Shown piece after piece: positions 26,881-47,329 of a stretch of 53,028 bases of DNA; the first letter of the stretch is position 1, and each line of letters begins with the position of its first letter. Origin of the DNA: Rhodobacteraceae bacterium (ex Bugula neritina AB1). Lineage in GTDB: Bacteria > Pseudomonadota > Alphaproteobacteria > Rhodobacterales > Rhodobacteraceae. The translations under genes and the position numbers were made by a program. Below the pieces are notes generated by a model that did no database searches, was not told where the DNA came from, and was given only the letters and a program-made list of their open reading frames with translations. Where the stretch lies: positions 1 to 53,028 of the forward strand of contig MDLF01000078.1 in the NCBI GenBank assembly GCA_001730095.1, given 5' to 3'.

Positions 26881-28137
26881 TCACTGAGTGGTTAGCGTGA
26901 ACTCCAGCGAGACTTCAAAGACATCGCCCGGCAGCACCGGATCGTCAGGCCCCACCGCAAATACCTCGGTCCCTGCCGCCGTCCTGCGGCGGATTTTCAT
27001 GCCGGTGCGCAGCGGCAGATCCGCAGGCGCCGCGCCCTGCACCGTGGCCAGGCCCAGGAACATCGCCTCACGTTTGGTCTCCAGTTCGATCTTGCGGCGG
27101 GTGTCCTGAAGCTGGGAAACGATTTCGTGCCGCCGGTTGTCCACCGCCTGCAGCAGGTCACGGCGGGTTTCGCCGATCCGCTGGCGTGCCCGGTAGATCG
27201 CGGTGTCGAGATCCAGTTCCTCGGCATTCAGATTGGTCAGGACACGTTCGGCATCCACCAGACGGCTGGCCACCACCGCACCGCGGTCCACCAGCGCGCG
27301 CAGTTTTTCCGCTTGATCCCGGGCCAGCTCAACCTGCCGCTGCTGCCCGACCAGCTTGCCGTCCAGCGCTGCAAGTTCGGTGCGGTACAGCGCAATCAGC
27401 GCTTCGTTGGATTCCACCGTGCGGACCTGGGATTCCTGCCGGATATCAAACAGAGCCGTCTCCTCCGAGAGAATCCGGTCTACGGCGCCGGCGCCGTCAG
27501 GGTGGCGCAGATTATCCGGAAAGGCGATGGCTTCAGCGCCCGCCTGTTCCGCCATCAGCCGGGCCTCCCTGGCCCGCAGGCGCACAAGCTCCACCTGGGT
27601 CCCCCGCAGCGAGCTCACCAGCCGGTATTCAGACTCATCGCCCGGTGCCTGGCTGCGGCTGCGAAACAGGCCGCCGGCCAGTGCCAGCGCCTTACTGCCG
27701 GTCATCCCGGGGCGCCAGGCATAGGCGCCAGGAGCCGCTGCATCGCCGCCAATATAAAAGGGACGGTAGCGCAGGATTTGCATCGAGACTTCCGGCGGCT
27801 GATAGAGCCCAGCGGCCGCTTGCAGCTTGGCAGCGATTTCGGCAGCGGCTTCAGAGGTTGTCGCCCCCCCGGCGGTAATCCGGCCCGCAATCGGCACCGC
27901 CAGGGAGCCATCCAAGGCGACTGCGTATTCCCCGGATAGCGCTTCCATCGTCTCATAGGCCCCAGTTTCGTCATTCCAGGCCACCACCCTCAGGACAACC
28001 GCATCCTCCGGCCCCAGCCGGTAGGCTCCGGCCGCGGCTGCCGCCGCCAGAAGGCCCCACAGCGGCAGCGCCCGAAACACCACAGCCGCCATCGCCACCA
28101 TAACAGGCATCAGCCTGGATATATGCGTTCTCATCAT
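26881..28137 (-). CDS. exoF: ExoF-like polysaccharide export protein
   Basis: 418 residues from ATG 28137, which overlaps the ExoP stop (ATGA) and has GGAAG about 6 nt upstream. An N-terminal hydrophobic segment (~10-40) serves as signal or anchor. A Poly_export (PES) domain follows: YRLGPEDAVVLRVVAWN, VALDGSLAVPIAGRITAGG, VSMQILRYRPFYIGGDAAAPG with an SLBB-like turn. A long coiled-coil segment (~200-345) and a C-terminal beta part (PVLPGDVFEVSLEF) complete the ExoF plan. ExoF-type proteins form the periplasmic/outer-membrane export channel with the ExoP partner, coded directly upstream. Confidence 0.83.
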   Translation of the reverse strand: MMRTHISRLMPVMVAMAAVVFRALPLWGLLAAAAAAGAYRLGPEDAVVLRVVAWNDETGAYETMEALSGEYAVALDGSLAVPIAGRITAGGATTSEAAAEIAAKLQAAAGLYQPPEVSMQILRYRPFYIGGDAAAPGAYAWRPGMTGSKALALAGGLFRSRSQAPGDESEYRLVSSLRGTQVELVRLRAREARLMAEQAGAEAIAFPDNLRHPDGAGAVDRILSEETALFDIRQESQVRTVESNEALIALYRTELAALDGKLVGQQRQVELARDQAEKLRALVDRGAVVASRLVDAERVLTNLNAEELDLDTAIYRARQRIGETRRDLLQAVDNRRHEIVSQLQDTRRKIELETKREAMFLGLATVQGAAPADLPLRTGMKIRRRTAAGTEVFAVGPDDPVLPGDVFEVSLEFTLTTQ

Positions 28138-30407
28138 GATTGCTTCCACCCGGATTTGACGGTCTGCATGAAGCCGGGATACTCATATTTGCGCTCGGCC
28201 CGGCGCTTAACCCCGGTCATCACCGCATAGATGTTCTGGGCGCGCAAATCGCGCAGCCGCTCGATACAGGCTTCAACGGTTTGCCGCGCCGTGGCGTTCC
28301 AGCGCGTGACCATCACCAGCGCATCGGCATGATGCAGGAAGCTCGAAACATTGCCCAGGGACAGAACTGGCGCAGTATTGATGATCACATAATCATATTC
28401 CGCGGTCAGATTTTCCATCAGCGTTTCGAGCCACCGGTCGGGCAGGCAGCTGAGATCCGTCTGCGCTGTTTCTGCCACCAGCAGCTGCCAGTAGCCGGCC
28501 CGCGCGCGGGTGATGCCGGCGATTTCCGTCCCGGTATCGGCGGGACCGGGCACCGGCCGGGGCCTGCCGGAATTGTTCTGCGCGGCATCGACCAGAATGA
28601 CCGACCGGCCCCGCGCGGCCAGCGCCGCTGCCACCAGTGCCGCCGCCATTGCCTTGCCTTCGCCCGGGACCGCCGAGGTGAAGACAAGGGTTGTGCCGCC
28701 GCCCTGGCCGGTTACCCTGGACAGGAACAGCGCCAGCTTGCGGCCCTCTTCCACCAGGGTCCGTTCCGGGCCTGGCAGCGGGCTGGCAGTGCCCAGATTG
28801 TTCAGCAGCCGCGCGGCCCGCTGTTTGCGCAGAGACGACAGGCTTCCGATCACCGGCAGCCCGGCTGCCCTGCGCAGCTCGCGCCCGGTCTTGATGCTGT
28901 TGCTGGTCAGCTCAATCAGCAGCGCGATCCCCAGTCCGATCGCAAGCCCTGCCACCCCGGCAAGGGCCAGCCGCAACAGCGTCCTGGGAGAGCTCGGATC
29001 CTTTGGCGCCTCAGCAAAGGACAGCAGCCGCACCGTGGGCTGCTGCAGGGCTTTGAGCTGTGCCGATTCCGTGGCGACCTTGAGAAATTCCTCATAGGCA
29101 ATCCGGTTGGCGTCGGCGATCCGGCGCAGCTTGGCCAGTTCAACCATATTGCGCGACCGGGCCTTCACCATCTCCTCCAGACCTGAAAGCTGGGCTTCGA
29201 TCGAGGCAACAACCGCCGCTGCAATACTGGCCCGGGTCGCGAATTCGGACACAATCCGATTGGTTTCCAGTGCGGATTCCTCCTCGACGCGGGCGATCAC
29301 CGCATCCAGCGCGGCCACTTGCGGCGCGTCTGCGCCGAATTGCTCTGCGGCACGGCTGCGCTCGATCCGGTGACCGGAAAGCTGCTGGCGCAGGTCATTC
29401 AGAATAGGAGATTCCAGCACCTGCGACGCGGCCACCGGGCCGGCGGCCGCCACCAGCTCGCGCACCTTGTTGCGCTGCGCCTCGGCCGTGACAATCTCGG
29501 TCCGGGCCGCAACCAGCGACCGGCCGAGATTTTCGATCTGCTGGTTCAGCCGGTCTGCATTGTCCTGATTGACACCGGCCACACGGGCCTGGAAATCCAC
29601 CACTGCGGTTTCCGCGCCCTCCAGATTGCGCCCCAGCTCCTCGACCCGGCCGCTCAGCAGCTGCACCTGCTCCTCGATGGCCTGGCTGCGGATGCCGAGG
29701 CTGAACTTGGGGTATTCGGCAGCCACGGTATTGGCGATGGCGGCCGCAAACAATGGCGTGGCGGCTTCTGCCGACAGGCTAATGCCATAGCCGTTGCCGC
29801 TTTGCTCGATCCGCAAGACAGAGGCCAGACGATCCGCAGCCTCACCGTATTGAAGCATGTCTTCGGCCAGGGCCTCTGCCGCCGCCGCTTCTGGCACGGA
29901 CTTTGGCAGCGGCACGCTGGAGGCCGAAGAACTGGCCGCGGTCTCAGGCACCGGCTTGGCACGGATCAGGCCGGAAACATAGGTTTTGAACGACCCCAGC
30001 ATGCGCAGCGGCAGCGGCGGCGGCCCGCTGCTTGCCAGCATCGACGCACTGGTCTCCGCGCCCAGGCTCTTGACCACCTCGATCATAAAGGCCTTGGACT
30101 GCATGGTGGTGATTTCCTGCTCCACCACCTGACGGCTGAGCGGCACGCCGGTCAGCAGGTCGGCAATCGGAGTGCTGTTCTGGCGTGGGTCCACCAGTGT
30201 CACTTCCGCGGTTGCCGTGTACCGCGGCTGAATCTGGGACAGCAGAACAGTGTTTACTGCGGTAACGGCAATGAACACCGTCCCGATCAGCAGCCAGCGG
30301 CGCCAGAAAAACAAATAGATGTCCCCCAGCCTGAGCCCGTCCCTGCGCGGCTGGGCATCAAGCGGATCATCCACCATAAAGCTGAGAAGCCCATTGTTCC
30401 GGTTCAC
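28134..30407 (-). CDS. exoP: ExoP-like chain-length/co-polymerase protein with degenerate tyrosine-kinase domain
   Basis: 757 residues from GTG 30407, with AAGGAG 7 nt upstream. It has a Wzz domain with TM1 (~38-58, WLLIGTVFIAVTAVNTVLL), a large periplasmic coiled-coil region (~210-445) and TM2 (~475-500). A cytoplasmic BY-kinase-type ATPase domain follows from ~550, with a C-terminal KYEYPGF tail carrying two Tyr. The kinase motifs are altered: Walker A reads PGEGKAM (K585, then Ala where Ser/Thr is expected), Walker A' reads ILVDAAQN (second Asp lost), and Walker B reads VIINTAP (N677 for Asp). The domain may not phosphorylate. It pairs with ExoF immediately downstream and would set chain length and couple polymerisation to export. 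Confidence 0.83.
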   Translation of the reverse strand: MNRNNGLLSFMVDDPLDAQPRRDGLRLGDIYLFFWRRWLLIGTVFIAVTAVNTVLLSQIQPRYTATAEVTLVDPRQNSTPIADLLTGVPLSRQVVEQEITTMQSKAFMIEVVKSLGAETSASMLASSGPPPLPLRMLGSFKTYVSGLIRAKPVPETAASSSASSVPLPKSVPEAAAAEALAEDMLQYGEAADRLASVLRIEQSGNGYGISLSAEAATPLFAAAIANTVAAEYPKFSLGIRSQAIEEQVQLLSGRVEELGRNLEGAETAVVDFQARVAGVNQDNADRLNQQIENLGRSLVAARTEIVTAEAQRNKVRELVAAAGPVAASQVLESPILNDLRQQLSGHRIERSRAAEQFGADAPQVAALDAVIARVEEESALETNRIVSEFATRASIAAAVVASIEAQLSGLEEMVKARSRNMVELAKLRRIADANRIAYEEFLKVATESAQLKALQQPTVRLLSFAEAPKDPSSPRTLLRLALAGVAGLAIGLGIALLIELTSNSIKTGRELRRAAGLPVIGSLSSLRKQRAARLLNNLGTASPLPGPERTLVEEGRKLALFLSRVTGQGGGTTLVFTSAVPGEGKAMAAALVAAALAARGRSVILVDAAQNNSGRPRPVPGPADTGTEIAGITRARAGYWQLLVAETAQTDLSCLPDRWLETLMENLTAEYDYVIINTAPVLSLGNVSSFLHHADALVMVTRWNATARQTVEACIERLRDLRAQNIYAVMTGVKRRAERKYEYPGFMQTVKSGWKQS

Positions 30408-32969: not shown

Positions 32970-32997
32970 CGCAGCTAGGGCCACTGCCCTAGCTGCG
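32970..32997. terminator. Hairpin between convergent genes (bidirectional terminator candidate)
   Basis: A perfect 11-bp inverted repeat, CGCAGCTAGGG / CCCTAGCTGCG, with a 6-nt loop CCACTG. It lies just after the stop of the plus-strand GT2 and includes the stop codon of the minus-strand GT2. No T-run follows, so termination may depend on convergence or Rho. Confidence 0.55.
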
Positions 32998-34026
32998 CCG
33001 GGCCCTGTCGCCACCCGGCGCAAACCTGCGCCTGCTGCGCAGCCAGGCCTGCTGCAGCAGTTTTCCCATCAGGGCCGCCGTTACCGCAGGCGGCTCCAGT
33101 CCCAGCGCCGCGATACTGCGCAGATCGCCTGCCCGCACCGCGTCGATCATCCGCCGCCAGGCCCATTCCTTGTGAACCTGCCGGCAATGGCGGCGGATGG
33201 CTGCACGGGCGGCAGTTTCCAGATCCGGCCGCCCCAGCAGCGCCCGGTCCGCCTGCACCAACGCACCCAGATCTGCCGTGCTGTGCTGCCCGCTCAGGGA
33301 GTTTTCCCGGTGCACTGCAAAATACCCCCGCGGATCCACCAGCTGGAACGCAGCCCCGGCGGCCAGCGCCTGGGCATACAGCATGTAATCCTCGGCCAGC
33401 CGCAGGGTCTCGGCATAGCGCAGTCCATGCGCCTGCAAAAAAGCGCGCCGCATCAGCGGTTTGACAAAGCCCAGCTCGCTCCGACGTCCGCGGCTGCCAT
33501 GGGTATTGGCCTCGGCAAAAAGGGCCAGCGAGACCTGCATTCGGCCAAAATCCTGCGGGCTCCACAGCCGCTGCCCGGTTGCCGTCGGGGCCGTTTCGGA
33601 GACTTGGTAGATATCATCTGCCAGGAAATCGAGCCCCTTTGCCTCAGCCTCCTGCACCAGCCGGGCAATCCGGTCCGGCGCCATATGATCATCTGCATCC
33701 AGCACCGCGATCCAGGGCGCAGCAGCGGCGGCAATCGCGCGGTTGCGGGCGGCGGCAGGTCCGGCGTTGCGGGGCTGGCGCAGGACCACGGCTCCCGGCA
33801 CCGGGCCGCTCAGCCGTTCAGCCAGCTCTGCAGTGCCGTCCTGCGAAGCGTCATCGACCACCAGAACCTCGACCGGAACCGTCTGGGCAAAAGCCGAGCG
33901 CAGCGCCCGCTCCAGCGTGGCTTCAGCATTATAAGCGGCAATCACGATCGCTGCGCGCGGCGCCTCTGCTGTCAGCTGTCCTGTGTGGTCCGGCCTCGTG
34001 CCCATGGCTTGCTCTCTCGCGCTCAC
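32989..34026 (-). CDS. Family 2 glycosyltransferase
   Basis: 345 residues from GTG 34026, which overlaps the TGA of the DprE2-like gene (GTGA); ATG 34005 has GAGAGAG upstream and is an alternative. GT-A signs are AAIVIAAYNAEATLERAL, VDDASQDGT, VLDADDHMAPD and LAEDYMLYAQAL. It shares with the 23150-24106 gene the block GFVKPLMRRAFLQAHGLRYAE. It is the last gene of the polyprenyl-pentose operon, but as a cytoplasmic GT-A enzyme it probably uses a nucleotide sugar rather than the polyprenyl-P donor. Confidence 0.8.
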   Translation of the reverse strand: MSAREQAMGTRPDHTGQLTAEAPRAAIVIAAYNAEATLERALRSAFAQTVPVEVLVVDDASQDGTAELAERLSGPVPGAVVLRQPRNAGPAAARNRAIAAAAAPWIAVLDADDHMAPDRIARLVQEAEAKGLDFLADDIYQVSETAPTATGQRLWSPQDFGRMQVSLALFAEANTHGSRGRRSELGFVKPLMRRAFLQAHGLRYAETLRLAEDYMLYAQALAAGAAFQLVDPRGYFAVHRENSLSGQHSTADLGALVQADRALLGRPDLETAARAAIRRHCRQVHKEWAWRRMIDAVRAGDLRSIAALGLEPPAVTAALMGKLLQQAWLRSRRRFAPGGDRARRS

Positions 34027-34766
34027 AGGCTGGTTTTCTTGAACAGCCGTTCCGGCAGTATCCGGATAATCGCCATGATCATCCGCCAAACCGGGCGCAC
34101 GTAGACCACATCGCGGCCGCGTTCAACGGCGTGCAGGATCGCTTCCGCCACCTCCTCTGGCGCGGCGGTCAGCGCCCTGGGCAGGTCCAGACCTTCGGTC
34201 ATGCGGGTGGCCACAAAGCCGGGCTTGACCGTGATCACCTGCACCCCTTGCCGCGCCAGCCGGTTGCGCAACCCGGACAGAAACGCGGTAAAGCCGGCCT
34301 TGGCGGCGCCATAAACGTAATTCGATGCCCGCCCGCGATCACCCGCAACCGAGCTGACCCCGACAATCGTGCCCCGTCCCAGTGCCGCCATCCGTTCCGC
34401 ATAAAGCCCCAGGATCAAGGCCGGCCCTTCAAAATTACTGCGCATGACCCGCGCCGCCGCCGCCGGATCCAGCTCGCTTTCGCGCTGATCGCCCATCAGG
34501 CCGACAACGCAGACAACGATCCCCGGCGGCGCCTCGCCTGCCCCGGCGAATTCCGGCAGCGCCGATGACGCCAGCACGTCAAATTCAACCGCCTGTGCCC
34601 CGGCACCATACCGCAGGGAAATATCCTGGCAATCCGCCGCCAGGCTCTGCGCCTCCCGGGCCGCCAGCATCACCGGGTGGCCCGCGCGGGCAAAGGCATG
34701 CGCTGCCGCCAGCCCGATATCCGACCGCCCGCCCAGGATCATCACGCCGGGTTTGGGTTCATTCAT
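34023..34766 (-). CDS. Short-chain dehydrogenase, DprE2-like (2-keto-pentose reductase candidate)
   Basis: 247 residues. It has the SDR cofactor motif ILGGRSDIGLAAAHAFARAG, catalytic Ser in VSSVAGDRGR, Tyr/Lys in NYVYGAAKAGF, and VKPGFVATRMT. The C-terminal RPVWRMIMAIIRILPERLFKK, a hydrophobic tail, is typical of DprE2. DprE2 reduces the 2-keto intermediate made by DprE1 to give decaprenylphosphoryl-D-arabinofuranose. Its ATG overlaps the TGA of the DprE1-like gene, so the two halves of the epimerase are translated together. General SDRs look similar; the assignment rests on sequence plus neighbour. Confidence 0.82.
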   Translation of the reverse strand: MNEPKPGVMILGGRSDIGLAAAHAFARAGHPVMLAAREAQSLAADCQDISLRYGAGAQAVEFDVLASSALPEFAGAGEAPPGIVVCVVGLMGDQRESELDPAAAARVMRSNFEGPALILGLYAERMAALGRGTIVGVSSVAGDRGRASNYVYGAAKAGFTAFLSGLRNRLARQGVQVITVKPGFVATRMTEGLDLPRALTAAPEEVAEAILHAVERGRDVVYVRPVWRMIMAIIRILPERLFKKTSL

Positions 34767-36094
34767 AGCAACAGCCTTTCAGATTGAGCGGAAGCAAAGG
34801 CGGTATCCAGTCCCTCTTTGCGCCGCATGGCCTGGAACCGGGCGGCACGCGGGTCGGACCGGTGCAGCGAAGCCGCCGCCATCCGCGCATCCTTGGCCAG
34901 ATAAAACCGGCCGCCATGTTCCAACGTGATCGCGTCCAGCCTGTCCAGCAGTGCCAGCGCCCGCACCGTGGCCGGGAAATCCAGTGCCAGCGTATAGCCG
35001 GGCATCGGAAAAGACAGGCCGCCACGGCCACGGCCGAACTGCTTCAGCACCGCCAGGAATGACCCCTGCCCCGCCGCCGACGTCTCAGACAGCAACGCCA
35101 CCAGTCCCGCGCGGGCGCTCTGCGTCGGCAGCACGCATTGAAACTGCACAAAGCCCCGGCGCCCATAGATCCGGTTCCAGCCCAGAACCGCGTCCAGCGG
35201 ATAGAAGAAGCTGTCCCAATCCACCAGGGATTCCCCTGCCCGCCGCAGGCCCTGGCGCCAGTACAGCGCATTGAACGCCTTGACCGTACAGCGATTGAGC
35301 AGCGCAGAAGGGGCATTCCAAAGCACCCGCCGCTTGCGGCGCAGCGGGGCCTGCAGCGGTGCTGCGCGCTGCGCCGGTGGCAAGTCTGCAGCCCGGGCGT
35401 GCTCCCCCAGCATCAGCAGGGACCGCCCCAGCGAGTCTCCGCTGGCCAGGCAATCGATCCAGGCCGCCGAATAGGTCGCCTCTCGGGCGGTCTCAAAGGC
35501 AGCAAGCGCGGCGTCCAGATTGGCAGCCGGCAGGGTCTTCTGGCTGATCCAGGCGCTTTCGACAGGGCGCAGGCGGATAGCGGCGCGCAGGATGATGCCG
35601 GTCAGCCCCATGCCACCCAGCGTCCATTCAAACAGCCGGGAGTTGCTGGCCGGGCTTGCTCTGGTGACAGAGCCATCCGCGCCCAGCACATCAATCCAGT
35701 CGACAAAGGCGCCGAAACTGCCCTCGCAATGATGGTTCTTGCCATGCGCATCCGCGGCAATGGCACCGCCAAGGGTGACGAATTTGGTGCCTGGCGTCAC
35801 ATAGGGAAACCAGCCCCGGGGCAGGAAAACATCAATGATATCGGACAGGAGCACTCCGGCCTCAGCCACCAGCCGACCGCTGCTGCTGTCAAACGCCAGT
35901 ATCCGGTTGAAACGACGCATCTCTATGGTTGCCGCGCTGCCAATGGCACTGTCGCCATAAGCCCGCCCGTTGCCGCGCGCCACCGCGCCGCCGCCGCCGG
36001 CCGCCGCGCGCAAGGCCGCTTCGCCGTGCGGCGCCGCAACCCGGGCAAAACGGCGGGGAAAGCGGCCCCAGCCCGAGATTTCCTGCATCCCCAT
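34763..36094 (-). CDS. DprE1-like FAD-dependent oxidase (polyprenylphosphoryl-ribose 2-oxidase candidate)
   Basis: 443 residues, close to the DprE1 family length. It has the FAD-binding PCMH fold with AVARGNGRAYGDSAIG, TPGTKFVTLGGAIAADAHGK, NHHCEGSFGAFVDWIDVLGA and LGGMGLTGIILRA. The C-terminal half has LKQFGRGRGGLSFPMPGYTL and FYLAKDAR, where DprE1 has its active-site Lys. The family oxidises the 2-OH of polyprenylphosphoryl-beta-D-ribose. At the position of the mycobacterial benzothiazinone-target Cys there is A370 (PGYTLA versus PGWNIC, from memory of the family). Its ATG overlaps the stop of GtrA by 1 nt, and its stop overlaps DprE2. Confidence 0.87.
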   Translation of the reverse strand: MGMQEISGWGRFPRRFARVAAPHGEAALRAAAGGGGAVARGNGRAYGDSAIGSAATIEMRRFNRILAFDSSSGRLVAEAGVLLSDIIDVFLPRGWFPYVTPGTKFVTLGGAIAADAHGKNHHCEGSFGAFVDWIDVLGADGSVTRASPASNSRLFEWTLGGMGLTGIILRAAIRLRPVESAWISQKTLPAANLDAALAAFETAREATYSAAWIDCLASGDSLGRSLLMLGEHARAADLPPAQRAAPLQAPLRRKRRVLWNAPSALLNRCTVKAFNALYWRQGLRRAGESLVDWDSFFYPLDAVLGWNRIYGRRGFVQFQCVLPTQSARAGLVALLSETSAAGQGSFLAVLKQFGRGRGGLSFPMPGYTLALDFPATVRALALLDRLDAITLEHGGRFYLAKDARMAAASLHRSDPRAARFQAMRRKEGLDTAFASAQSERLLL

Positions 36095-36519
36095 CAGGCA
36101 GGCCGCTCCGCTGCCGCCTGGTTGAATACGTAGCGCCGGTCCAATTGATATTTGATGGCATAGCCTGCTGCCAGCCCAAGCACCGCGCCCGTCTCGCGCA
36201 TCGCATCAGTACCCCAGGCCAGCCAGAATGCGGTCTCGCTGCCCCAGAAGATCGCGGTCGTGATCAGGCCCATAGCGGTATACAGGGTGAATTTCCGCCC
36301 ATGTGCCGCCAGCCCCCGCGATGTGTCGGCAAAGATCCAGCGCTTGTCGAGGATGTATTTCAGCGCCAGCCCGGCAGCCGTGCCACAGAGCACCGCCGCA
36401 GCAAAGCCTGCCCCGGTGCTGCCCGCCACAACAAGCACCAGCCGCTGCACCGCCAGATTGGAAAATGTCGCCAGCACCGCAAAGACGGTATAGCGCAAGA
36501 CAAGCGCCGTGCGTGTCAC
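36094..36519 (-). CDS. GtrA-family membrane protein (polyprenyl-P-sugar flippase candidate)
   Basis: 141 residues, four predicted helices. GtrA marks are RYTVFAVLATFSNLAVQRL, then LKYILDKRWIFAD and IKYQLDRRYVF. In GtrA-type proteins such repeats flank helices and the role is movement of a polyprenyl-phosphate sugar to the periplasm. In mycobacteria a GtrA-like gene (Rv3789) lies next to dprE1/dprE2, exactly as here. The GTG start overlaps the TGA of the UbiA fusion gene. Confidence 0.85.
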   Translation of the reverse strand: MTRTALVLRYTVFAVLATFSNLAVQRLVLVVAGSTGAGFAAAVLCGTAAGLALKYILDKRWIFADTSRGLAAHGRKFTLYTAMGLITTAIFWGSETAFWLAWGTDAMRETGAVLGLAAGYAIKYQLDRRYVFNQAAAERPA

Positions 36520-37979
36520 AGCATCGTCCCTCCCAGGGCAAACAGGAAAATCAGCCCAAGGCAGATAATAGAAATGTAATCCCTGGCTGCAAAGACAACC
36601 GGATCATCATGCATCCAGCCGCGATGGGTGATCATCACCATCCGGCTCAGCCAGAACAGCAGCACCAGGCAGATGCCCCACAGCGCCTCGGGAAAAGCAT
36701 AAAGCTCGCGCACACCGGGAGTATTGAGATACAGCGCCATCACCAGCACCGACATATAGCCGGAGGAAACAGCCATATTGGCCACCAGCGGCTTGTCCGA
36801 TGTCCGGTAGTCGCGCCCGGCCACCTTCTTGCTCTGCGCATCGCCTTCGGCCACCAGTTCGGCCTGCCGCTTCATCGCCGCCAGCGCAAAGAAGAAGAAC
36901 ATCGAAAATGCCAGCAGCCAGACCGACAGCGGGATTCCCGTGGCCACGCCGCCGGCAATGATGCGCAGGGTATAAAGCCCGCCAAGAGTGCAGATGTCCA
37001 CCACAAGACGGCGCTTGAGCAGGAAGGAATAGACCGTGGTGACCCCGTAATAAAAGGCCATCACCGCCGCAAACAGTGGCCCCAGCGCAAAGGCGATGCC
37101 AAACCCCGCCAGCAATAGCCCCGGTGCCAATGCCGTGCCCCAGGAGAGCGGCAGCTGCCCGCTGGCAAAGGGGCGCTGCCGCTTGCGCCGGTGCTGCCGG
37201 TCTGCTGCCAGGTCCAGAAGATCGTTCAACAGATAAACCGAAGAGGCAATCAGGCTGTAGGCGGCAAAGGCCGTCAGCGCCTGCAGCAGGGTCATAAGGT
37301 CGAGCTGATGCGCAGCCATCAGCGGCAGGAAAACCAGGACATTCTTCAGCCATTGATGCGGCCGCATCGCCCGCAGCAGCGGCCGCAGGCGTGGCTCTGC
37401 AGGCGTGAGATGCAGCACCTCTTCTGCCGCGCGCGCAGCCTCTGCCTTAAGCCGCGCAGACAGGCCCACGGTGATGGCTTTGTCCGCGCCGCGCCAGACC
37501 GCCAGATCAGCCCGGGAATCGCCGATATAGGCATAGCCTTCCGCCCCGTAGAGCGCCTCCAGCCGGGCCGCCTTGGTGGCGCCTTTCAGGTTTTCCTTGC
37601 CGTCCGATCCATGGGCCTCATCAAACAGCCCCAGATGGTCTGCAATGCGCGCAACAATCCTTTGATCCGACGCCGAGACCAGAGCCGTGCGGCCGCCTTG
37701 CTGCCGCCAGGTCTGCACATAGGCAATCACATCCGCATTGTAGGGCAACAGTGCCACATCCACCGGTCCGGCCTGTTCCAGAAACCGTTTCAGCTGCGCC
37801 CGGCCCTGGATCAGCCTGCCCAGCATCGGCAGCGCATTGGCCCAGCGTTTGGACAGCGCCGACCAGGCGGTCTCATACAGCATATCTGTCCGTATCAGGC
37901 TGCCATCAAGGTCCACGACAAGCACCGCACCGGCAGTATCCGCCTGCGGAACAGTTCCAAACATTCCTGAATCATCCAT
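36516..37979 (-). CDS. HAD phosphatase - UbiA prenyltransferase fusion (polyprenyl-P phosphoribosyltransferase candidate)
   Basis: 487 residues from ATG 37979 (GCGGGA 5 nt upstream); ATG 38012 would add 11 dubious residues. The N-terminal HAD domain has VVDLDGSLIRTDM (D23, D25), LVSASDQ and YIGDSRADLAVW. The UbiA part from ~195 has LRAMRPHQWLKNVLVF, NDLLDLAADRQHRRKRQRP (first Asp-rich motif) and VVDICTLGGLYTLRIIAGG (second motif), with about nine helices. The UbiA features match the family of decaprenylphosphoryl-5-phosphoribose synthase (Rv3806c): PRPP plus polyprenyl-P gives polyprenyl-P-ribose-5-P. The HAD domain could then remove the 5-phosphate, a step done by a separate protein in mycobacteria. 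It is the first gene of the operon with GtrA, DprE1 and DprE2. Confidence 0.85.
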   Translation of the reverse strand: MDDSGMFGTVPQADTAGAVLVVDLDGSLIRTDMLYETAWSALSKRWANALPMLGRLIQGRAQLKRFLEQAGPVDVALLPYNADVIAYVQTWRQQGGRTALVSASDQRIVARIADHLGLFDEAHGSDGKENLKGATKAARLEALYGAEGYAYIGDSRADLAVWRGADKAITVGLSARLKAEAARAAEEVLHLTPAEPRLRPLLRAMRPHQWLKNVLVFLPLMAAHQLDLMTLLQALTAFAAYSLIASSVYLLNDLLDLAADRQHRRKRQRPFASGQLPLSWGTALAPGLLLAGFGIAFALGPLFAAVMAFYYGVTTVYSFLLKRRLVVDICTLGGLYTLRIIAGGVATGIPLSVWLLAFSMFFFFALAAMKRQAELVAEGDAQSKKVAGRDYRTSDKPLVANMAVSSGYMSVLVMALYLNTPGVRELYAFPEALWGICLVLLFWLSRMVMITHRGWMHDDPVVFAARDYISIICLGLIFLFALGGTML

Positions 37980-38382
37980 ATCAATCCCGCAGCAAATTTG
38001 GGGGGTACACATAAAACTGTCCGGTGCCCAATTCAGCTCCCAAGGGGCGGATCAGGCATACGATTAAGAAATCTAGGGCAAATGTCCGGGTTGTCTCAGG
38101 AAATTGCACGACACGGCACGCCAGCCGCCCGATCCGGGCCCTGCGCTTGACGCAAGAACAATGAGTATGGTTACCTGCAGTGCAACGAGGGGGCTGGCAG
38201 CATGAGAACGCCGCAGCGGAACCTGCGCAGCGCTTTTGGGTGCCGGAAGGCGGACCGGTTTGGAGTGCTGCTTCTTTTTCGGAATGAGTTTGCCGCGGAG
38301 AGGGGCACATCGCCATGCTTTGCAGGGCAGCCGCCTCATCCGCTCAAAGGTGTGTTGATGTCAGTTTCAAATAAGTTTTGCC
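37980..38382. other. Divergent intergenic region, 403 bp
   Basis: It separates the start of the polyprenyl-pentose operon (minus) from the GT2 pair (plus), so promoters for both should be here. The 38020-38100 part is richer in A/T. TTGACG at 38149 is a possible -35 hexamer for the plus strand, but I could not find a well-spaced -10. A 69-codon frame from 38202 overlaps the GT2 start and has no coding character. Confidence 0.4.
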
Positions 38383-40830: not shown

Positions 40831-41538
40831 TCAGCAGCCGGTGCGCCTGATGACCACCAGCCAGGTTTTGAACAGGATCATCAGATCCAGTGGAAAGCTC
40901 ATGTTGCGCAGATAACGGTGATCCATGGACACTCGGTCTTCGTAAGACACGCTGTTGCGCCCCGACACCTGCCAGATGCCGGTGATCCCCGGTTTCTGCG
41001 CCAGGTAGGATCCCGACCGGCCGCCGTATTTCCCCAGCTCTTCGCCGGTCACCGGGCGTGGCCCGACAAAGCTCATGTCCCCGCACAGCACGTTCCAGAT
41101 CTGCGGCAGCTCATCCAGGCTTGATTTGCGCAGGAAATCCCCGAACCGCGTAATCCGCGGATCATGAGCCAGTTTGCGGCTGGCCTCCCATTCCCTTGCC
41201 GCATCCGGATTGCCGCCCAAATAAGATTGCAACTTCTCTTCGGCATCCGGCACCATGGTGCGGATCTTCCAGCATTTGAAGCTGCAGCCGCCCCGGCCGA
41301 CCCTTGCGTGCCCAAAAAAACCAGTCCCGCCGCCGCACCTGGTGATCAGCCATAGAATGGCAATCAGCGGCGCAATCAGCGGCAGCAGCGCTGCGGCCAG
41401 AAACAGATCGAATACACGTTTTCCTACTCTGCGGTACAGCCCCTCCCAGACCATCCGCTCGGCTGTCTCTATCCCCTTGCGGCCCCCCGAAATCTCAAAA
41501 TTTTTCAGTTGGCCCTGATACTCAGTAACATTTTTCAT
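40831..41538 (-). CDS. exoY: ExoY-like initiating sugar transferase (phosphoglycosyltransferase)
   Basis: 235 residues from ATG 41538; TTG 41613 would add 25 residues. A membrane segment ([21 protein letters not shown]) is followed by the bacterial sugar transferase domain: [46 protein letters not shown] and [14 protein letters not shown]. ExoY transfers galactose-1-phosphate from UDP-galactose to undecaprenyl phosphate, the first step of succinoglycan assembly. The upstream region has an A/T-rich stretch and a GTAAA-TT-TTTAC palindrome at 41643-41654. A second, different initiating transferase is at 47666. Confidence 0.85.
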
Positions 41539-41793
41539 ACCCACTACCCAAAACAACACATCAGGACAACTTGGGACGACATAGAACTGCTTACTGAAAT
41601 TCCCCCCTGACAAGCGTTATTTTTAGCGTGTTTCTTCAGAAAGTAAATTTTTACCTAAACTTTCCAGCAAATGCCCATTGGGAAAGATGTTGCAATCCCG
41701 CCGAAAATCCCGGCGCCAGCGAGGCTTCCAGCATTCGCAATATTGCCTGGAGGCGCCGCAGGGTCTCGTGCCGCAGCCGCGGGCACGCATAAA
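41539..41793. other. Upstream region of the ExoY-like gene
   Basis: 255 bp between the chosen ExoY start and the YjbE terminator. 41615-41665 is strongly A/T-rich and contains the palindrome GTAAATTTTTAC (41643-41654). It is the probable promoter and operator zone of the ExoY-like gene. Confidence 0.4.
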
Positions 41794-42269: not shown

Positions 42270-42965
42270 TCACAGCCGCAGCAGACGAATCCGCATGTAG
42301 CCGATCTCTGGCCCGGCCCATTGTCGCGACTGCCAGACCTGCGCCCGGCCCGGCCGGGAATCGACCCAATAGTCATTGACCACCGTGCCGCCGCCTGCGC
42401 CTTCCAGACTGCAACGTTCCTGCAGATGGCGGGTGGGGTGGGTCACTTCGACGATTTCCACGGCCGCGGCCCCCAGGTCGTGCAGGCTGCAGGCCATTTC
42501 AAGCGTGGTCTGGCCGTTGCCGTCGGCACGCACGGTGTAGCGCCGGGCACCGCCGCGCGCCGGTCCCGCCACCCCGTCTGCGGCCGGCACCTGCGCGGAC
42601 AACAATCCACCGCCCAGGCCCCGGGTGGCAATGACCATGCCTTGGCGCAGGCTAAGCGATACATTGTCCTGAGTGCGCCAGATGGCAATGCTGCCGGGAT
42701 GGCTGTCGCGACGCGCCAGTGACGGGGTCAGAAAGGCGGTGACCTCGCGGTTCTCGATGGTGACCTCGATATGGGCCAGGGTCTGCTCGTCCAAGAGTGC
42801 CCGGGTCAGCTTGGGCGGCGGCGGCGCCTTGCGGCGCCCCCGGAACTGCTCGGCCACCGCCTGTATCACTTCCAGCTCCGCCGGTGTCTTTTCTGGGCCA
42901 CGGGCACAGCCCCCCAGCAGCAGCAGCGCCGCCGCCAAGGCGGGCAGGAAACGGATCATGCTCAT
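42270..42965 (-). CDS. yjbF: YjbF/GfcB-family lipoprotein
   Basis: 231 residues. A lipoprotein signal with lipobox LLGG|C20 is followed by a beta-rich domain with LTPSLARRDS, the typical TRGLGGGLLSA stretch and the C-terminal VWQSRQWAGPEIGYMRIR seen in YjbF proteins. The family is part of yjbEFGH/gfcABCD EPS and capsule export clusters and is thought to act at the outer membrane. Its ATG overlaps the TGA of the YjbH gene (ATGA). YjbG/GfcC is missing here. Confidence 0.82.
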   Translation of the reverse strand: MSMIRFLPALAAALLLLGGCARGPEKTPAELEVIQAVAEQFRGRRKAPPPPKLTRALLDEQTLAHIEVTIENREVTAFLTPSLARRDSHPGSIAIWRTQDNVSLSLRQGMVIATRGLGGGLLSAQVPAADGVAGPARGGARRYTVRADGNGQTTLEMACSLHDLGAAAVEIVEVTHPTRHLQERCSLEGAGGGTVVNDYWVDSRPGRAQVWQSRQWAGPEIGYMRIRLLRL

Positions 42966-45226
42966 TCCCAGAACCTCGCACGCTGATCTTCCAGGTTCTT
43001 GCGGTGGGCCGCGCGCACCGATCCATAAAGCCGGTCCGGCACCGCCACCCGCTGGCCGCCGTCCCGCTGGGTCGGGCGGATGGTCAGGCCGAAACCGGAC
43101 CGCGACGGCTTGCCCAGCAGCCAGTCGACCGGAATCCGGAAGCGGAAGCCCTTGTCAAAGGAGCCTTCGCCGAAATCCTCGGCGGACACATTTGTCAGGG
43201 TGAAGAAGGCGCCGACCAGGAAACCGTTGTCAAACTCCCGGTTCAGGCTGAAGGTGCCGCCGTAATCGCCCGCCAGGTAGCGGCCCGCATCCACTTGCAT
43301 CAGATAGCCCTTGCCCAGCTCTGCATAGGCCGAAGCATGACCGGTGAAGGTGCGGTAGTCGCGAAAGGAAAACCGCTGGTCGAAATCGCGCTGCACCACA
43401 TAGTTGGCCTCCAGCCCAAAGCTGATGCGGCTGTTCACAGGCTTCCACAGCATCTCGCCGGAGACGCCGCCGTACATGCTCTCGAACAGGCCCGCGGTGG
43501 CGCGGGCATAAAGGTTGCGCCCGGGTTTCCACAGGCGGCTCACATAGAGGTTTTCCAGAGTGGTGCCGAATTGGGCGTATTCGTTCTGATCGGTGCGCAC
43601 ATGCGGCAGCACCGAATTGGAGGCGCGGCCGTTCTTCACATTGCCGGCCAGCCGCTGGCGGATGGTGCCGGCAATGCGCCAGCCCGGCGCCGGTTCATAA
43701 GAGGCCGCAAAATCGAGACCCGCATCCAGCCGGAACGGTTTTTCGGGATCGAAATAGGCAGGCTGGGTATAGGGGCTGATGGAGGTGGCAAAAGCCGGAT
43801 ACAGCTCACCCGAGAAGATCGCATCCTCAGGCAGCGGTCCGGCAGCGCGGACACCGGCGGCAGCGAACAGCGCATCCGAAGCATCCGCATCAAACTCCAG
43901 CGCCTCCAGATCGGACCGGCGGATCTCGATGGTGGACAGGCCGATACCGCGGCGCACCGGCACCAGGCGAAAAGTCTCCACCGAGGCCGGCAGCGACTGG
44001 GCCAGGGCGCGGGCGGCGCGCCCTGCAGCTTGCGCGGCCGACCGATAGCGGTTGTTGCGGTAGCGCAGCTCGACAGTGGTGCCGGTGAGGGTGATTGCCT
44101 CCAGCACCAGCCCATCGGCCTTGAGCGTCTCGGCCGCCAAATCACGGAACTTCTGTTTCTGGGAGGTGCTGGCCATCCACTCCTGTTTCCAGCTATCCGC
44201 TGGACCGGCCCATTGCACCCGCGGCTGCACCGGGTGCGGGGCGGGCACCGCCATCGGCGTGGGCGGGTTATTCGGATTGAGCTGGATCTGCGCAGTGATG
44301 CCGATTTCCGAACCATAAAGGTAATAGGCGCCCAGGCGCAGCCGGTCGGAATACTGGTATTCCACCCCGTAGTTGATTGAGGACTTGCGGTCGAACACAT
44401 CGGAGATCTGCGTTTCGGTCACATAGGCATCGGTGGAATATTCCGCCTTCAGGCTCCAGCGCTCATCGGGCTGCCACTCGAAGCCGCCAAAAGGCGCGAA
44501 ATCGCCGCGGAACCACTGGTCGGTGGACAGTTCGCCGCCGGTGCTGCCGCCCACGAATGTCGGGCGATTGCCGCCGATATTGCCGATGGCGCCCTGACTA
44601 CCAAGCCGCCCCCAGCCCAGCCCTGCCGAGACCTTCAGACGACCGGGGGCGCGGCCCCAGCCCAGAGCGGCGGCCTCAAACCGTTTCGTGGCGACGAAAT
44701 ATTCCGCCGCATAGACCCCGGTGCCGGCAAAATCCTGCAGCCCCATCGTGACCTCAGGCAGCCAGCGCCGTTCGCGCCAGAGCCGGGCACGCACATCAAA
44801 GCCACGGTCGTAATAGGTGTCAAAACCGAACAGGTTCAGATCCTGGATGCCGTTGTAGCGGAAGCTGGCCGACAGCCAGGGCAGCGCCTGGAAGGTGATG
44901 TTGTAACGCGAGGTGCCGCCGAACCAGGAATAGGTGACTGCATATTGGCCGTCCGGCAGCATATCCGCGCTGGGGGTGTCGATAATGCCGGGGCTGCCAT
45001 AGAAATTGAGGCTCGGGGGCGGCAGCGGCTTCAGCCGCGGGGCGGCGGCTTCGGTTCCTGGCGCCGCGTCATGGCCTGCGCGGGTGATCTCCGGCCCCGC
45101 AGCCCAATGCTGGGCGCTGGCAGGCAGTGCCATCAGCCACAGCGCGGCGGCCGGGGCCGCCAGCCGCATACCGCAAAGCCGCCCACGGGCTGCGGTCCTG
45201 CACAAAAGGGGGAGGATCGGGGTCAC
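42962..45226 (-). CDS. yjbH: YjbH/GfcD-family outer-membrane protein
   Basis: 754 residues from GTG 45226 (GCAGG ~6 nt upstream); ATG 45169 gives a neater signal peptide (MRLAAPAAALWLMALPASA|QH) and is the alternative. After a proline-rich linker comes LNFYGSPGIIDTPSADMLPD, the N-terminal YjbH hallmark, then alternating beta-strand segments ending with aromatic residues to the C-terminus. Such proteins form outer-membrane beta-barrels in EPS/capsule export and work with YjbF (next gene, ATGA overlap). The long middle loop region (~330-500) is not membrane-like and may be periplasmic. Confidence 0.83.
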   Translation of the reverse strand: MTPILPLLCRTAARGRLCGMRLAAPAAALWLMALPASAQHWAAGPEITRAGHDAAPGTEAAAPRLKPLPPPSLNFYGSPGIIDTPSADMLPDGQYAVTYSWFGGTSRYNITFQALPWLSASFRYNGIQDLNLFGFDTYYDRGFDVRARLWRERRWLPEVTMGLQDFAGTGVYAAEYFVATKRFEAAALGWGRAPGRLKVSAGLGWGRLGSQGAIGNIGGNRPTFVGGSTGGELSTDQWFRGDFAPFGGFEWQPDERWSLKAEYSTDAYVTETQISDVFDRKSSINYGVEYQYSDRLRLGAYYLYGSEIGITAQIQLNPNNPPTPMAVPAPHPVQPRVQWAGPADSWKQEWMASTSQKQKFRDLAAETLKADGLVLEAITLTGTTVELRYRNNRYRSAAQAAGRAARALAQSLPASVETFRLVPVRRGIGLSTIEIRRSDLEALEFDADASDALFAAAGVRAAGPLPEDAIFSGELYPAFATSISPYTQPAYFDPEKPFRLDAGLDFAASYEPAPGWRIAGTIRQRLAGNVKNGRASNSVLPHVRTDQNEYAQFGTTLENLYVSRLWKPGRNLYARATAGLFESMYGGVSGEMLWKPVNSRISFGLEANYVVQRDFDQRFSFRDYRTFTGHASAYAELGKGYLMQVDAGRYLAGDYGGTFSLNREFDNGFLVGAFFTLTNVSAEDFGEGSFDKGFRFRIPVDWLLGKPSRSGFGLTIRPTQRDGGQRVAVPDRLYGSVRAAHRKNLEDQRARFWE

Positions 45227-45448: not shown

Positions 45449-47329
45449 TCAGGAGGTCTTGCGCCCGGGCGCCAGCGGCTGGCAATAGCCCTCGACCCAA
45501 TGCCGCACCACCTGCAGCGCCGCGGCCTCGTCGCCCGCCGCCACTGCCTGGCGCAGGCTGCGCAGGAAGCCTGCGACCTGGATCTCCGACAGCACGGTTT
45601 CGCGGGCGCAAAAGATTTTCTGATGGCGGGTGTGGATCAGCTCCTCGCTCAAGGTCAGCTCCTCCTCCATCTTCTCGCCGGGGCGCAGCCCGATGATCTC
45701 GATGGCGATGTCGCCCTCGGGGTTGTCCGCATCGCGCACCGTGTGGCCAGTGCTTTCGATCACCTGGCGGGCCAGCTGCAGGATCGGCACCGGCGCGCCC
45801 ATATCCAGCACAAAGACCTCGCCACCCTGGGCCATATCGCCCGCCTGCAAGACCAGCTGCACCGCCTCGCTGATGGTCATGAAAAAGCGGCGCACATTCG
45901 GGTCGGTCACGGTGACCGGGCCGCCACGGCTGATCTGCTCCTGGAACAGCGGCACCACCGAGCCGGAGGAGCCCAGGACATTGCCAAAGCGGACCATGGT
46001 GAACACGGTGTTCTGGCCGTGGCGGGTGGCCAGGTCCTGCACGATCAGCTCTGCCATCCGCTTGGAGGCACCCATCACATTGGCCGGGTTCACCGCCTTG
46101 TCCGAAGAAATCAGGATGAAGCGCTCGACGCCTGCCCGCGCCGCGGCGCGCGCCAGCGTTTGGGTGCCAAAGACATTGTTGGCCAGTCCCGGCAAGGGGT
46201 TGGCCTCAACCAGCGGCACATGTTTATAGGCCGCCGCATGCAGCACCACCTGCACCTCATGGGCATTGAGCACCATCCGCATCTGGCGCGGATCGGTGAT
46301 CGAGCCCAGCACCGGCACCAGCGCGATGCCTGCAGCCTCGGCCAGCGGCCCCAGTTCCTGATGCACGGTGTAAAGCGCCAGTTCGCTCAGCTCGAACAGC
46401 ACCAGTTTCGACGGCCGGCAGGCCAGCACCTGACGGCACAGCTCCGAACCGATCGAGCCACCAGCGCCGGAGACCAGCACCGATTTGCCCTGATAAGAGC
46501 CGGCGGCTTCCTTCAGCGGCACATCGCGCGCGGCCCGACCCAGGAAGGCCTGCGGCGCCACCGGCGTCAGCTTGTCGACCAGGGCTTCTTCGCCGATGAG
46601 CTGGGCAAAAGAGGGCAGCGCCTGCACCTCCAGCCCCAGCTGCTGCAGCCGCTGGGTGATTCTGGCCTGGCGCTGCTGGCTCTGCGAGGGCATCGCCAGA
46701 AGCACCCGGCGGATCTGGCGCGCCTGCACGATTTCAGAGATCCGCGTGGGCGCAAAAACCGGCAGCCCGACCAGCGTCAGCCCCTGCAAGGAGGAATTGT
46801 CATCGGCAAAGGCCACCGGGTCGATGCCGTCATGGGATTTCAGCGCCTGGGCCAGCTGGGTGCCGGTGGTGCCGGCGCCGTAGATCAGCACCCGGCAGCG
46901 CGGCTGGGCACGGCGATAAACCGCCAGCACCACCTGCAGCATTGCCGCGCGGGTCACCACCATGAACAGGAAATAGCAGATTGCAAACACCACATAGGTG
47001 CCGAAACCCAGCGGCGGCCCGAAGCCCGCTGCCAGCAGGGCCAGCCCCAGCGCCGTGCCACCTGCCAGCAGGGCGCTTTGCGCCGCGGCGTGGCGCTCAT
47101 AGGCGTTGAGCTGCACATGCGGCAACCCCAGCCACAGCGCCAGGGCGGCTGCAGACGCCATCACATAAGGCAGGACCGGCAGCAGCGCCCCCAGGGTCGC
47201 AAGCGCCGGATCTGGCAGCGGCTGCACTTCCAGCGTGAACAGCAGCGCCAGCGGCAGCAGCACCAGGTCCACCGCCAGGAAGACATAGGATTTCTGCCTG
47301 CGCGATAGCGCACTGATCAGATTATACAT
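45449..47329 (-). CDS. CapD/WbpM-type nucleoside-diphosphate-sugar 4,6-dehydratase
   Basis: 626 residues. Four hydrophobic segments (to ~140) anchor the protein, and a first Rossmann fold (VLIYGAGTTGTQLAQAL) follows. The catalytic SDR domain has VLVSGAGGSIGSELCRQVL, HAAAYKHVPLVE, LISSDKAVNPANVMGASKRM and GLRPGEKMEEEL. WbpM, CapD and PglF of this type convert UDP-GlcNAc to UDP-4-keto-6-deoxy sugars, first step to bacillosamine, FucNAc or QuiNAc, in the inner membrane. The SDK in place of the Tyr of the classical YxxxK triad is normal for the long WbpM subgroup. The start lies next to a regulatory repeat region. Confidence 0.87.
   Translation of the reverse strand: MYNLISALSRRQKSYVFLAVDLVLLPLALLFTLEVQPLPDPALATLGALLPVLPYVMASAAALALWLGLPHVQLNAYERHAAAQSALLAGGTALGLALLAAGFGPPLGFGTYVVFAICYFLFMVVTRAAMLQVVLAVYRRAQPRCRVLIYGAGTTGTQLAQALKSHDGIDPVAFADDNSSLQGLTLVGLPVFAPTRISEIVQARQIRRVLLAMPSQSQQRQARITQRLQQLGLEVQALPSFAQLIGEEALVDKLTPVAPQAFLGRAARDVPLKEAAGSYQGKSVLVSGAGGSIGSELCRQVLACRPSKLVLFELSELALYTVHQELGPLAEAAGIALVPVLGSITDPRQMRMVLNAHEVQVVLHAAAYKHVPLVEANPLPGLANNVFGTQTLARAAARAGVERFILISSDKAVNPANVMGASKRMAELIVQDLATRHGQNTVFTMVRFGNVLGSSGSVVPLFQEQISRGGPVTVTDPNVRRFFMTISEAVQLVLQAGDMAQGGEVFVLDMGAPVPILQLARQVIESTGHTVRDADNPEGDIAIEIIGLRPGEKMEEELTLSEELIHTRHQKIFCARETVLSEIQVAGFLRSLRQAVAAGDEAAALQVVRHWVEGYCQPLAPGRKTS

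Follow-up and report, generated by a model that had tools for sequence, protein, structure and literature searches.

The 53,028-nt contig MDLF01000078.1 (the window) of Rhodobacteraceae bacterium (ex Bugula neritina AB1), a member of the genus of Leisingera, carries a four-gene operon within an exopolysaccharide (EPS) locus. Its genes code for a HAD-UbiA fusion protein, a GtrA-family membrane protein, a DprE1-like flavin adenine dinucleotide (FAD) oxidase, and a DprE2-like short-chain dehydrogenase/reductase (SDR). An initial annotation, made from the DNA sequence, had described these families and their joining by overlaps of 1-4 nt, and both are borne out by the open reading frames (which overlap by 4, 1, and 4 nt in turn) and by Pfam and NCBIfam searches. 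One detail differs. The start assigned to the HAD-UbiA gene (37979) is an in-frame ATG located 11 codons inside an open reading frame that extends to 38012.

Table 1. Operon genes and other features of the EPS locus in the window.
Feature	Position	Strand	Size or evidence
HAD-UbiA fusion	36516..38012	-	498 aa
GtrA-family membrane protein	36094..36519	-	141 aa
DprE1-like FAD oxidase	34763..36094	-	443 aa
DprE2-like SDR reductase	34023..34766	-	247 aa
GT2 glycosyltransferase, directly downstream of operon	32989..34089	-	Pfam GT2 1.5e-31; synteny
AftB-like GT-C, favored candidate terminal pentofuranosyltransferase	13508..15208	+	PDB, NF041481, Foldseek, DD motif
Second, more distant GT-C	5080..6774	+	identity to 13508 gene, DD motif, Foldseek
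Wzx-like flippase	7774..9288	-	PF13440 1.1e-51
Wzy/O-antigen-ligase-like polymerase	16930..18213	+	PF04932 1.2e-12
Wza-like export protein	26881..28149	-	PF02563, PF02706, PF13807 across Wza/Wzc pair
Wzc-like chain-length protein	28134..30407	-	PF02563, PF02706, PF13807 across Wza/Wzc pair
EPS backbone sugar transferases	40831..41613 and 47666..48277	-	Pfam
YjbF	42270..42965	-	Pfam
YjbH	42962..45226	-	Pfam
Nucleotide-sugar dehydratase-like	45449..47329	-	Pfam

The four genes show the pattern expected of coding DNA, with G+C contents of 0.73-0.77 at third (GC3) and 0.45-0.55 at second (GC2) codon positions, and resemble the rest of the locus in this respect. Their order recurs in many genomes and is therefore not due to chance. 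Given this recurrence, the family matches, and the GC3 values, chance open frames can be dismissed as an explanation. Families were assigned from bit scores together with active-site residues, with paralogs from the same genome serving as controls. Each model found one strong match in this genome (HAD-UbiA 616 bits, DprE1 409 bits), with runners-up at 23 and 60 bits.

The UbiA part of the fusion protein (approximately residues 200-498) is predicted to be a polyprenyl-phosphate 5-phosphoribosyltransferase, and the HAD part (approximately residues 27-195) is predicted to be a fused phosphoribose phosphatase. The score of the whole protein lies far above the cut-off of 351 bits for the fusion family NF006088, and Pfam recognizes both UbiA (2.5e-20) and HAD (1e-9) domains. 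Among PDB entries, the top match of the UbiA part is the decaprenylphosphoryl-5-phosphoribose (DPPR) synthase 8j8j, at 120 bits. Eleven of the residues that are reported to form the phosphoribosyl pyrophosphate (PRPP) site of the mycobacterial enzyme Rv3806c (PMC10994848) were used as a test set, and 10 of these (R22, K28, Y70, N73, D77, K87, R90, Y138, K143, and Y157) are identical in the window protein. The same 10 residues are invariant across the best 80 of 578 confirmed relatives, a sample that is biased to close relatives. Two UbiA-family paralogs of the same genome (L004 and L005) share only five and six of the 11, and have no counterparts of K28, Y70, and K87, although alignments are loose at such distance. 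For the HAD part, the motifs that we take to be diagnostic (a DxD nucleophile, a Thr or Ser in motif II, a Lys in motif III, and an Asp in motif IV) are intact as D34/D36, S113, K147, and D165 with D169. The nucleophilic Asp is kept in all 80 relatives.

The DprE1-like protein is matched at 277 bits by DprE1 entries in the PDB, with 4aut as the best chain. Its active site was compared by mapping residues on chain 21gq_A, whose numbering places the known cysteine at 387. Ten of 12 positions are kept (Y60, H132, K134, W230, Y314, Q334, Q336, K367, F369, and K418), and the two changes in the window are N385 to Thr and C387 to Ala. An FAD-dependent paralog from the same genome (L002) agrees with the window protein at none of the 12. 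Among 57 DprE1 relatives found with HAD-UbiA, position 387 is always Ala, and position 385 is either Thr (55 relatives) or Ser (two); Y314 varies in three and F369 in 14. In the mycobacterial enzyme, C387 is reported to be the site of covalent attack by benzothiazinones and to be dispensable for activity (PMC6128881). DprE1 relatives with Ala at this position would be expected to escape the covalent benzothiazinone bond. The best PDB match of the DprE2-like protein is the DprE2 chain 21gq_C (113 bits), and the protein exceeds the cut-off of model NF005489 (326 versus 267 bits). The DprE1-like protein is thus predicted to carry out the 2'-oxidation of a polyprenyl-P-ribofuranose, and the DprE2-like protein the reduction of the 2-keto intermediate to the arabino configuration.

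The GtrA gene is well supported as a family member (NF037976, 163.6 bits with a cut-off of 50; PF04138, 33.7 bits with a cut-off of 26.1) and is predicted to encode a flippase for polyprenyl-P-pentose. The part in the pathway that the initial annotation gave to GtrA is upheld. A third component, the glycosyltransferase, would be supplied from elsewhere in the locus. For the protein of the 13508 gene, the best PDB sequence match is AftB (4e-5), and Foldseek also returns AftB as the best match (6e-6, TM 0.46) for an AlphaFold model with a mean pLDDT of 58. The protein of the 5080 gene has no PDB sequence match but is 28% identical to the 13508 protein over 321 columns, and its model (mean pLDDT 55) again finds AftB as the best Foldseek match (4.6e-5). 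The catalytic Asp of AftB is reported to sit in a DD motif (PMC12041299), and such a motif is present in both proteins, at positions 52-53 and 68-69, and is invariant in six sequences. Both proteins therefore combine AftB as the best structural match with the DD motif, on models of low confidence. The AftB equivalog NF041481 has a cut-off of 1050 bits, far above the 30.8 bits (7.7e-8) of the 13508 gene, and does not match the 5080 gene. As regards the two "AftB-like" genes of the initial annotation, the open frames, the motif, and the resemblance in fold stand, but membership in the AftB family itself does not.

The proposed setting of the operon in an EPS locus is confirmed by the Wzx-, Wzy-, Wza-, and Wzc-like genes and the sugar transferases (Table 1), which are accompanied by several GT2 and GT4 genes and two sulfotransferase-like genes. 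One locus thus holds a candidate three-component pentofuranose set of synthase, flippase, and GT-C enzyme. A search for phage sequences gave one partial match.

We consider it likely, with good confidence, that the product of the operon is lipid-bound D-arabinofuranose, from which the sugar would be added to the EPS in the periplasm. The UbiA domain would transfer 5-phosphoribose from PRPP to undecaprenyl-phosphate, and the fused HAD domain would remove the 5'-phosphate to give polyprenyl-P-D-ribofuranose. The DprE1-like enzyme would then oxidize C2 and the DprE2-like enzyme would reduce it with inversion, yielding undecaprenyl-P-D-arabinofuranose. This donor would be flipped by GtrA, and the AftB-like GT-C of the 13508 gene (perhaps also that of the 5080 gene) would move arabinofuranose onto the EPS. 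The reading is built on gene families, residues, operon structure, synteny, and co-occurrence. From these we infer each reaction in this organism, undecaprenyl as the lipid, the order of flipping and epimerization, the acceptor, and the linkage. The interpretation originally offered is supported in its family assignments, operon, EPS setting, and GtrA role. It had called the pathway mycobacterial in type, which holds for the reaction logic but not for the phosphatase, here a fused HAD domain as reported for Citrobacter ORF15 (PMC11127046). It had also left the pentose as D-arabinofuranose or D-ribofuranose, and the former is favored because DprE1 and DprE2 are intact.

Because the phosphatase is fused as in Citrobacter, the nearest relative that has been worked out is Gram-negative. 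Membranes containing the HAD-UbiA fusion of Citrobacter (ORF15) are reported to convert farnesyl-P and PRPP to farnesyl-P-ribofuranose, and, once the HAD Asp has been mutated, to accumulate chiefly the 5-phosphorylated form while still yielding some of the normal product (Kelly et al. 2024, PMC11127046). The Citrobacter youngae O1/O2 system has three components (ORF15 PPPRS, ORF14, and ORF12/GT136) together with ORF13, and an added epimerase is described as setting the pentose (PMC11127046). It resembles the window in having HAD ahead of a UbiA phosphoribosyltransferase, a lipid-linked donor, a flippase, a GT-C enzyme, and a separate gene for the pentose-setting epimerase. It differs in using an SDR (for xylofuranose) or no epimerase (for ribofuranose), a flippase assigned by its authors to the MATE family, and GT136, whereas the EPS locus of the window combines DprE1/DprE2 and GtrA with an AftB-like GT-C. 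Candidate systems for arabinofuranose-containing glycans are also reported to carry DprE1/DprE2 homologs (PMC11127046).

A second relative is the rhizobial operon for arabinosylation of Nod factors. The Azorhizobium noeCHOP genes were compared with the mycobacterial pathway in 2008 (PMC2443382), and in Rhizobium sp. IRBG74 arabinosylation is reported to be abolished by deletion of noeP and reduced by deletion of noeN (PMC5080398). The IRBG74 plasmid NC_022536.1 carries, near nodABC, genes for UbiA, GtrA, an FAD oxidase, an SDR, and a hypothetical protein. The order UbiA-GtrA-DprE1-DprE2 is that of the window, with identities of 56% for the UbiA part, 52% for GtrA, 59% for DprE1, and 58% for DprE2, such that the parallel with noeCHOP drawn in the initial annotation holds. 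In two noe operons of rhizobia, a GtrA gene stands at the corresponding position. NoeN had been put forward as the missing phosphatase (PMC5080398). Because the operon order C-N-H-O-P would place NoeN at the gene annotated as GtrA on the IRBG74 plasmid (L153:7447-7869; Pfam 5.8e-9), NoeN appears to belong to the GtrA family, and is more likely a flippase than a phosphatase. No report linking noeN to GtrA was found among the open-licence literature matches listed. NoeC has no recognizable HAD domain, and one long alignment extends into the end of that region, making a remnant possible. The noe operon also differs from the window in that the gene in the place of NoeP does not match either GT-C gene and the acceptor is a lipo-chitooligosaccharide.

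The mycobacterial decaprenylphosphoryl-arabinose pathway (Rv3806c, DprE1/DprE2, Rv3789, and AftB) follows the same reaction logic, with homologous UbiA, DprE1, DprE2, and AftB-type proteins, and Rv3789 is of the GtrA type. In the window, however, HAD replaces the unrelated phosphatase Rv3807c, DprE1 and DprE2 fall below equivalog cut-offs, and C387 is Ala. The mycobacterial product serves the cell-wall arabinan, whereas that of the window is proposed to serve EPS. With the biochemistry of HAD-UbiA in Citrobacter and the noe operon both in print, the window operon belongs to a kind that has been described. Among the matches listed from the open-licence literature, no paper was found on this pathway in the EPS of Rhodobacterales.

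Genomic surveys indicate that the pairing of HAD-UbiA with DprE1 recurs. With a threshold of 60 bits for flank matches, 56 of the best 80 relatives have both DprE1 and DprE2 in the fetched flank (33 with GtrA and 23 without), one, whose contig ends there, has DprE1 alone, and 23 have neither (five with GtrA, and six with less than 1.6 kb of downstream sequence). No epimerase common to the DprE1-less loci was found by Pfam (one gene near HAD-UbiA, 10 of the 23 loci). Wider surveys used E values up to 1e-100 for HAD-UbiA and up to 1e-50 for DprE1. In an even sample of 248 family genomes, HAD-UbiA occurs in 95, DprE1 in 90, and both in 80 (Fisher 8.5e-38, a statistic that, like the other p values given here, takes genomes as independent with kinship uncorrected, which counts against it). 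The two genes lie within 5 kb of each other in 66 of the 80, and further apart or on other contigs in 14. The layout of the window, in tandem, accounts for 27 pairs, 21 of which are separated by 413-446 nt, a spacing consistent with GtrA; an opposite-strand layout is commoner (40 pairs, 31 of them 759-899 nt apart). Across 289 genomes of the class, HAD-UbiA is present in 18 (three of these matches cover the UbiA part only), DprE1 in 36, and both in 12, adjacent in 11. Seven of 21 genomes of the genus have HAD-UbiA and nine have DprE1, and all seven with the former have the latter (p 3e-4). At these thresholds, the 14 control genomes lack HAD-UbiA, and only Corynebacterium glutamicum has DprE1. 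Thus, the pairing is common in the family, and the idea that the arrangement is unusual can be discarded. In these data, a record titled Nocardioides marinus (L038) has the same match place as contig C2 of a genome of the genus studied here (G524), and its name looks wrong.

At E values up to 1e-30, relatives of the 13508 gene turn up in six of the 248 family genomes, each of which also carries HAD-UbiA (p 0.003; 0.007 when the window is omitted). In four of the other five, the gene is on the HAD-UbiA contig within 19 kb, once at 501 bp, and in Shimia sp. R9_2 (L069) it directly follows DprE2. Since it also lies close to HAD-UbiA without an adjacent DprE1 (genome G536), this GT-C appears to track the donor synthase more closely than the epimerase. 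The Citrobacter GT-C is reported to accept ribofuranose and xylofuranose donors alike (PMC11127046). The 5080-type GT-C is found in only three of the 248 family genomes, each of which carries HAD-UbiA (p 0.055, or 0.14 when the window is left out).

The same EPS locus was found on plasmids of two Leisingera strains, M527 and NJS204, where proteins are mostly 70%-91% identical to those of the window (HAD-UbiA 82%-83%, GtrA 73%-75%, and the 13508-type GT-C 78%-80%). In both plasmids, however, the GT2 gene comes immediately after GtrA. DprE1 was found in neither whole plasmid record, the 41-kb stretches around HAD-UbiA gave DprE1 and DprE2 matches at chance level only, and the 5080-type GT-C was found in neither plasmid. 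In the more distant Salipiger sp. CCB-MM3, the four genes and those that follow them are arranged as in the window (DprE1 73%, DprE2 64%) and both GT-C types are present, with other parts of the locus rearranged. Because Salipiger keeps this order, loss of DprE1 and DprE2 from the Leisingera plasmids is the simpler reading. The presence of the 5080-type GT-C in Salipiger and its absence from both Leisingera plasmids would fit an arabinose-specific enzyme, although with only three family genomes holding this type the case is weak.

The plasmids without DprE1 and DprE2 need not make ribofuranose. The chromosome of NJS204 (G546, L146) carries an open GtrA-DprE1-DprE2 cluster (DprE1 62%) in which HAD-UbiA is cut to approximately its first 64 codons, and this strain thus has the two halves of the pathway on different replicons. 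Similar remnants of 57 and 58 codons precede GtrA-DprE1-DprE2 in genomes G549 (L147) and G536 (L148), the latter with one extra short piece. NJS204 and G536 each have one synthase-like UbiA, distant from DprE1; searches of G549 and G540 revealed no other synthase-like UbiA, and the DprE1 match in G540 carries two stops. We propose only tentatively, as a reading that may well be wrong, that the Leisingera pathway consists of two separable modules, with plasmid synthase and GT-C relying on chromosomal DprE1 and DprE2 in trans, as in NJS204. If true, the replicon and epimerase genes of a strain would set whether ribofuranose or arabinofuranose appears in its slime. The matched loci, with DprE1 and DprE2 in some and not in others, amount to a natural experiment on what determines the pentose.

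Several observations weigh against assigning a D-arabinofuranose pathway to the EPS locus. The DPPR synthase models NF008976-NF008978 give at best 165.8 bits (cut-off 207), the DprE1 model NF053785 gives 409.5 bits (equivalog cut-off 500), and the DprE2 model NF053786 gives 186 bits (cut-off 250). Because the latter two scores fall below the curated NCBI cut-offs, DprE1 and DprE2 of the window look like a distinct Gram-negative branch. At the PRPP site, Gln135 is Thr in the window protein, although this is true of 78 of the best 80 relatives. In 10 further relatives that were aligned (out of 17 besides the window protein), position 135 is Ser in two and Y157 is Phe in three. The window protein has the first Asp of HAD motif IV, whereas 23 of the 80 carry Asn there. 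Of the genomes with HAD-UbiA, 15 of 95 in the family and six of 18 in the class lack DprE1; of those with DprE1, 10 of 90 and 24 of 36 lack HAD-UbiA. Both GT-C genes have low-confidence models and lie outside the operon, approximately 19 and 27 kb away, and the 13508 type is near HAD-UbiA without adjacent DprE1 or DprE2 in G536, G350, and the Leisingera plasmids, and so is not arabinose-specific.

Some of these observations would suit a polyprenyl-P-D-ribofuranose end donor, with DprE1 and DprE2 inactive or unexpressed and the EPS carrying alpha-D-ribofuranose as in Citrobacter O1. HAD-UbiA by itself reportedly suffices for the ribose donor (PMC11127046), HAD-UbiA, GtrA, and the GT-C gene persist without DprE1 and DprE2 on two syntenic Leisingera plasmids, and the distribution of the 13508-type GT-C agrees with such an outcome. 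In the window, however, both DprE genes are open, overlap their neighbors by 1-4 nt, and keep their catalytic residues, and we find it very unlikely that they are idle. It is similarly improbable, in our estimation, that the oxidase and reductase give some other polyprenyl-P-ribose product (another epimer or a keto sugar) or act on a different lipid-linked sugar. Such a role would fit the low equivalog scores (the DprE1 cut-off is reached by none of the 289 class and 248 family genomes but by the C. glutamicum control) and the changes of N385 and C387 in all 57 relatives. Against it stand the dispensability of C387 reported for the mycobacterial enzyme (PMC6128881) and the presence of the same pair in noe operons that accompany D-arabinosylated Nod factors (PMC5080398, PMC2443382).

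The D-arabinofuranose donor might also serve a glycan other than this EPS, such as lipopolysaccharide, pilin, or a glycolipid. The known or proposed targets of such pathways in other bacteria include pilin, Nod factor, and O-antigen (PMC11127046, PMC5080398), and here the GT-C genes are outside the operon. We judge this least probable, because the place of the operon in the EPS locus is kept in the Leisingera and Salipiger plasmids and four of five other family genomes have the GT-C homolog no more than 19 kb from HAD-UbiA.

The favored reading, in which the operon supplies D-arabinofuranose to EPS, would place a full predicted donor pathway in the EPS locus of a marine-type Rhodobacterales genus. 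Since the pathway genes are common in the family, arabinofuranose (or ribofuranose) is worth seeking in the polymers of its members. The membrane side on which DprE1 acts has been called debated (PMC11127046), and such hosts could be used to address this question. We regard as new the syntenic pairs of loci with and without DprE1 and DprE2, the three chromosomes of the genus in which GtrA-DprE1-DprE2 persists behind a largely deleted HAD-UbiA, the link to the AftB-like GT-C, the proposed reassignment of NoeN, and the Ala at the benzothiazinone cysteine in all 57 relatives.

Other genes in the window provide additional hints about the polymer. Genes for a formyltransferase-like protein and a PIG-L deacetylase (9282-11979) adjoin a sulfotransferase-like gene, a hint that a sugar of the EPS may be deacetylated, N-formylated, or sulfated. 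A GMC oxidoreductase gene (15278-16933) between the AftB-like GT-C and Wzy-like genes keeps its place in both Leisingera plasmids. A 1490-aa protein (687-5159) combines glucose/sorbosone dehydrogenase, PKD, and laminin-G-like domains; its relatives are 70% identical in M527 and 77% in Salipiger, with none at that level in the NJS204 stretches. Finally, a protein of 1024 aa (18236-21310) that contains G8 and CEMIP beta-helix domains has counterparts of 80%-81% identity in both Leisingera plasmids.

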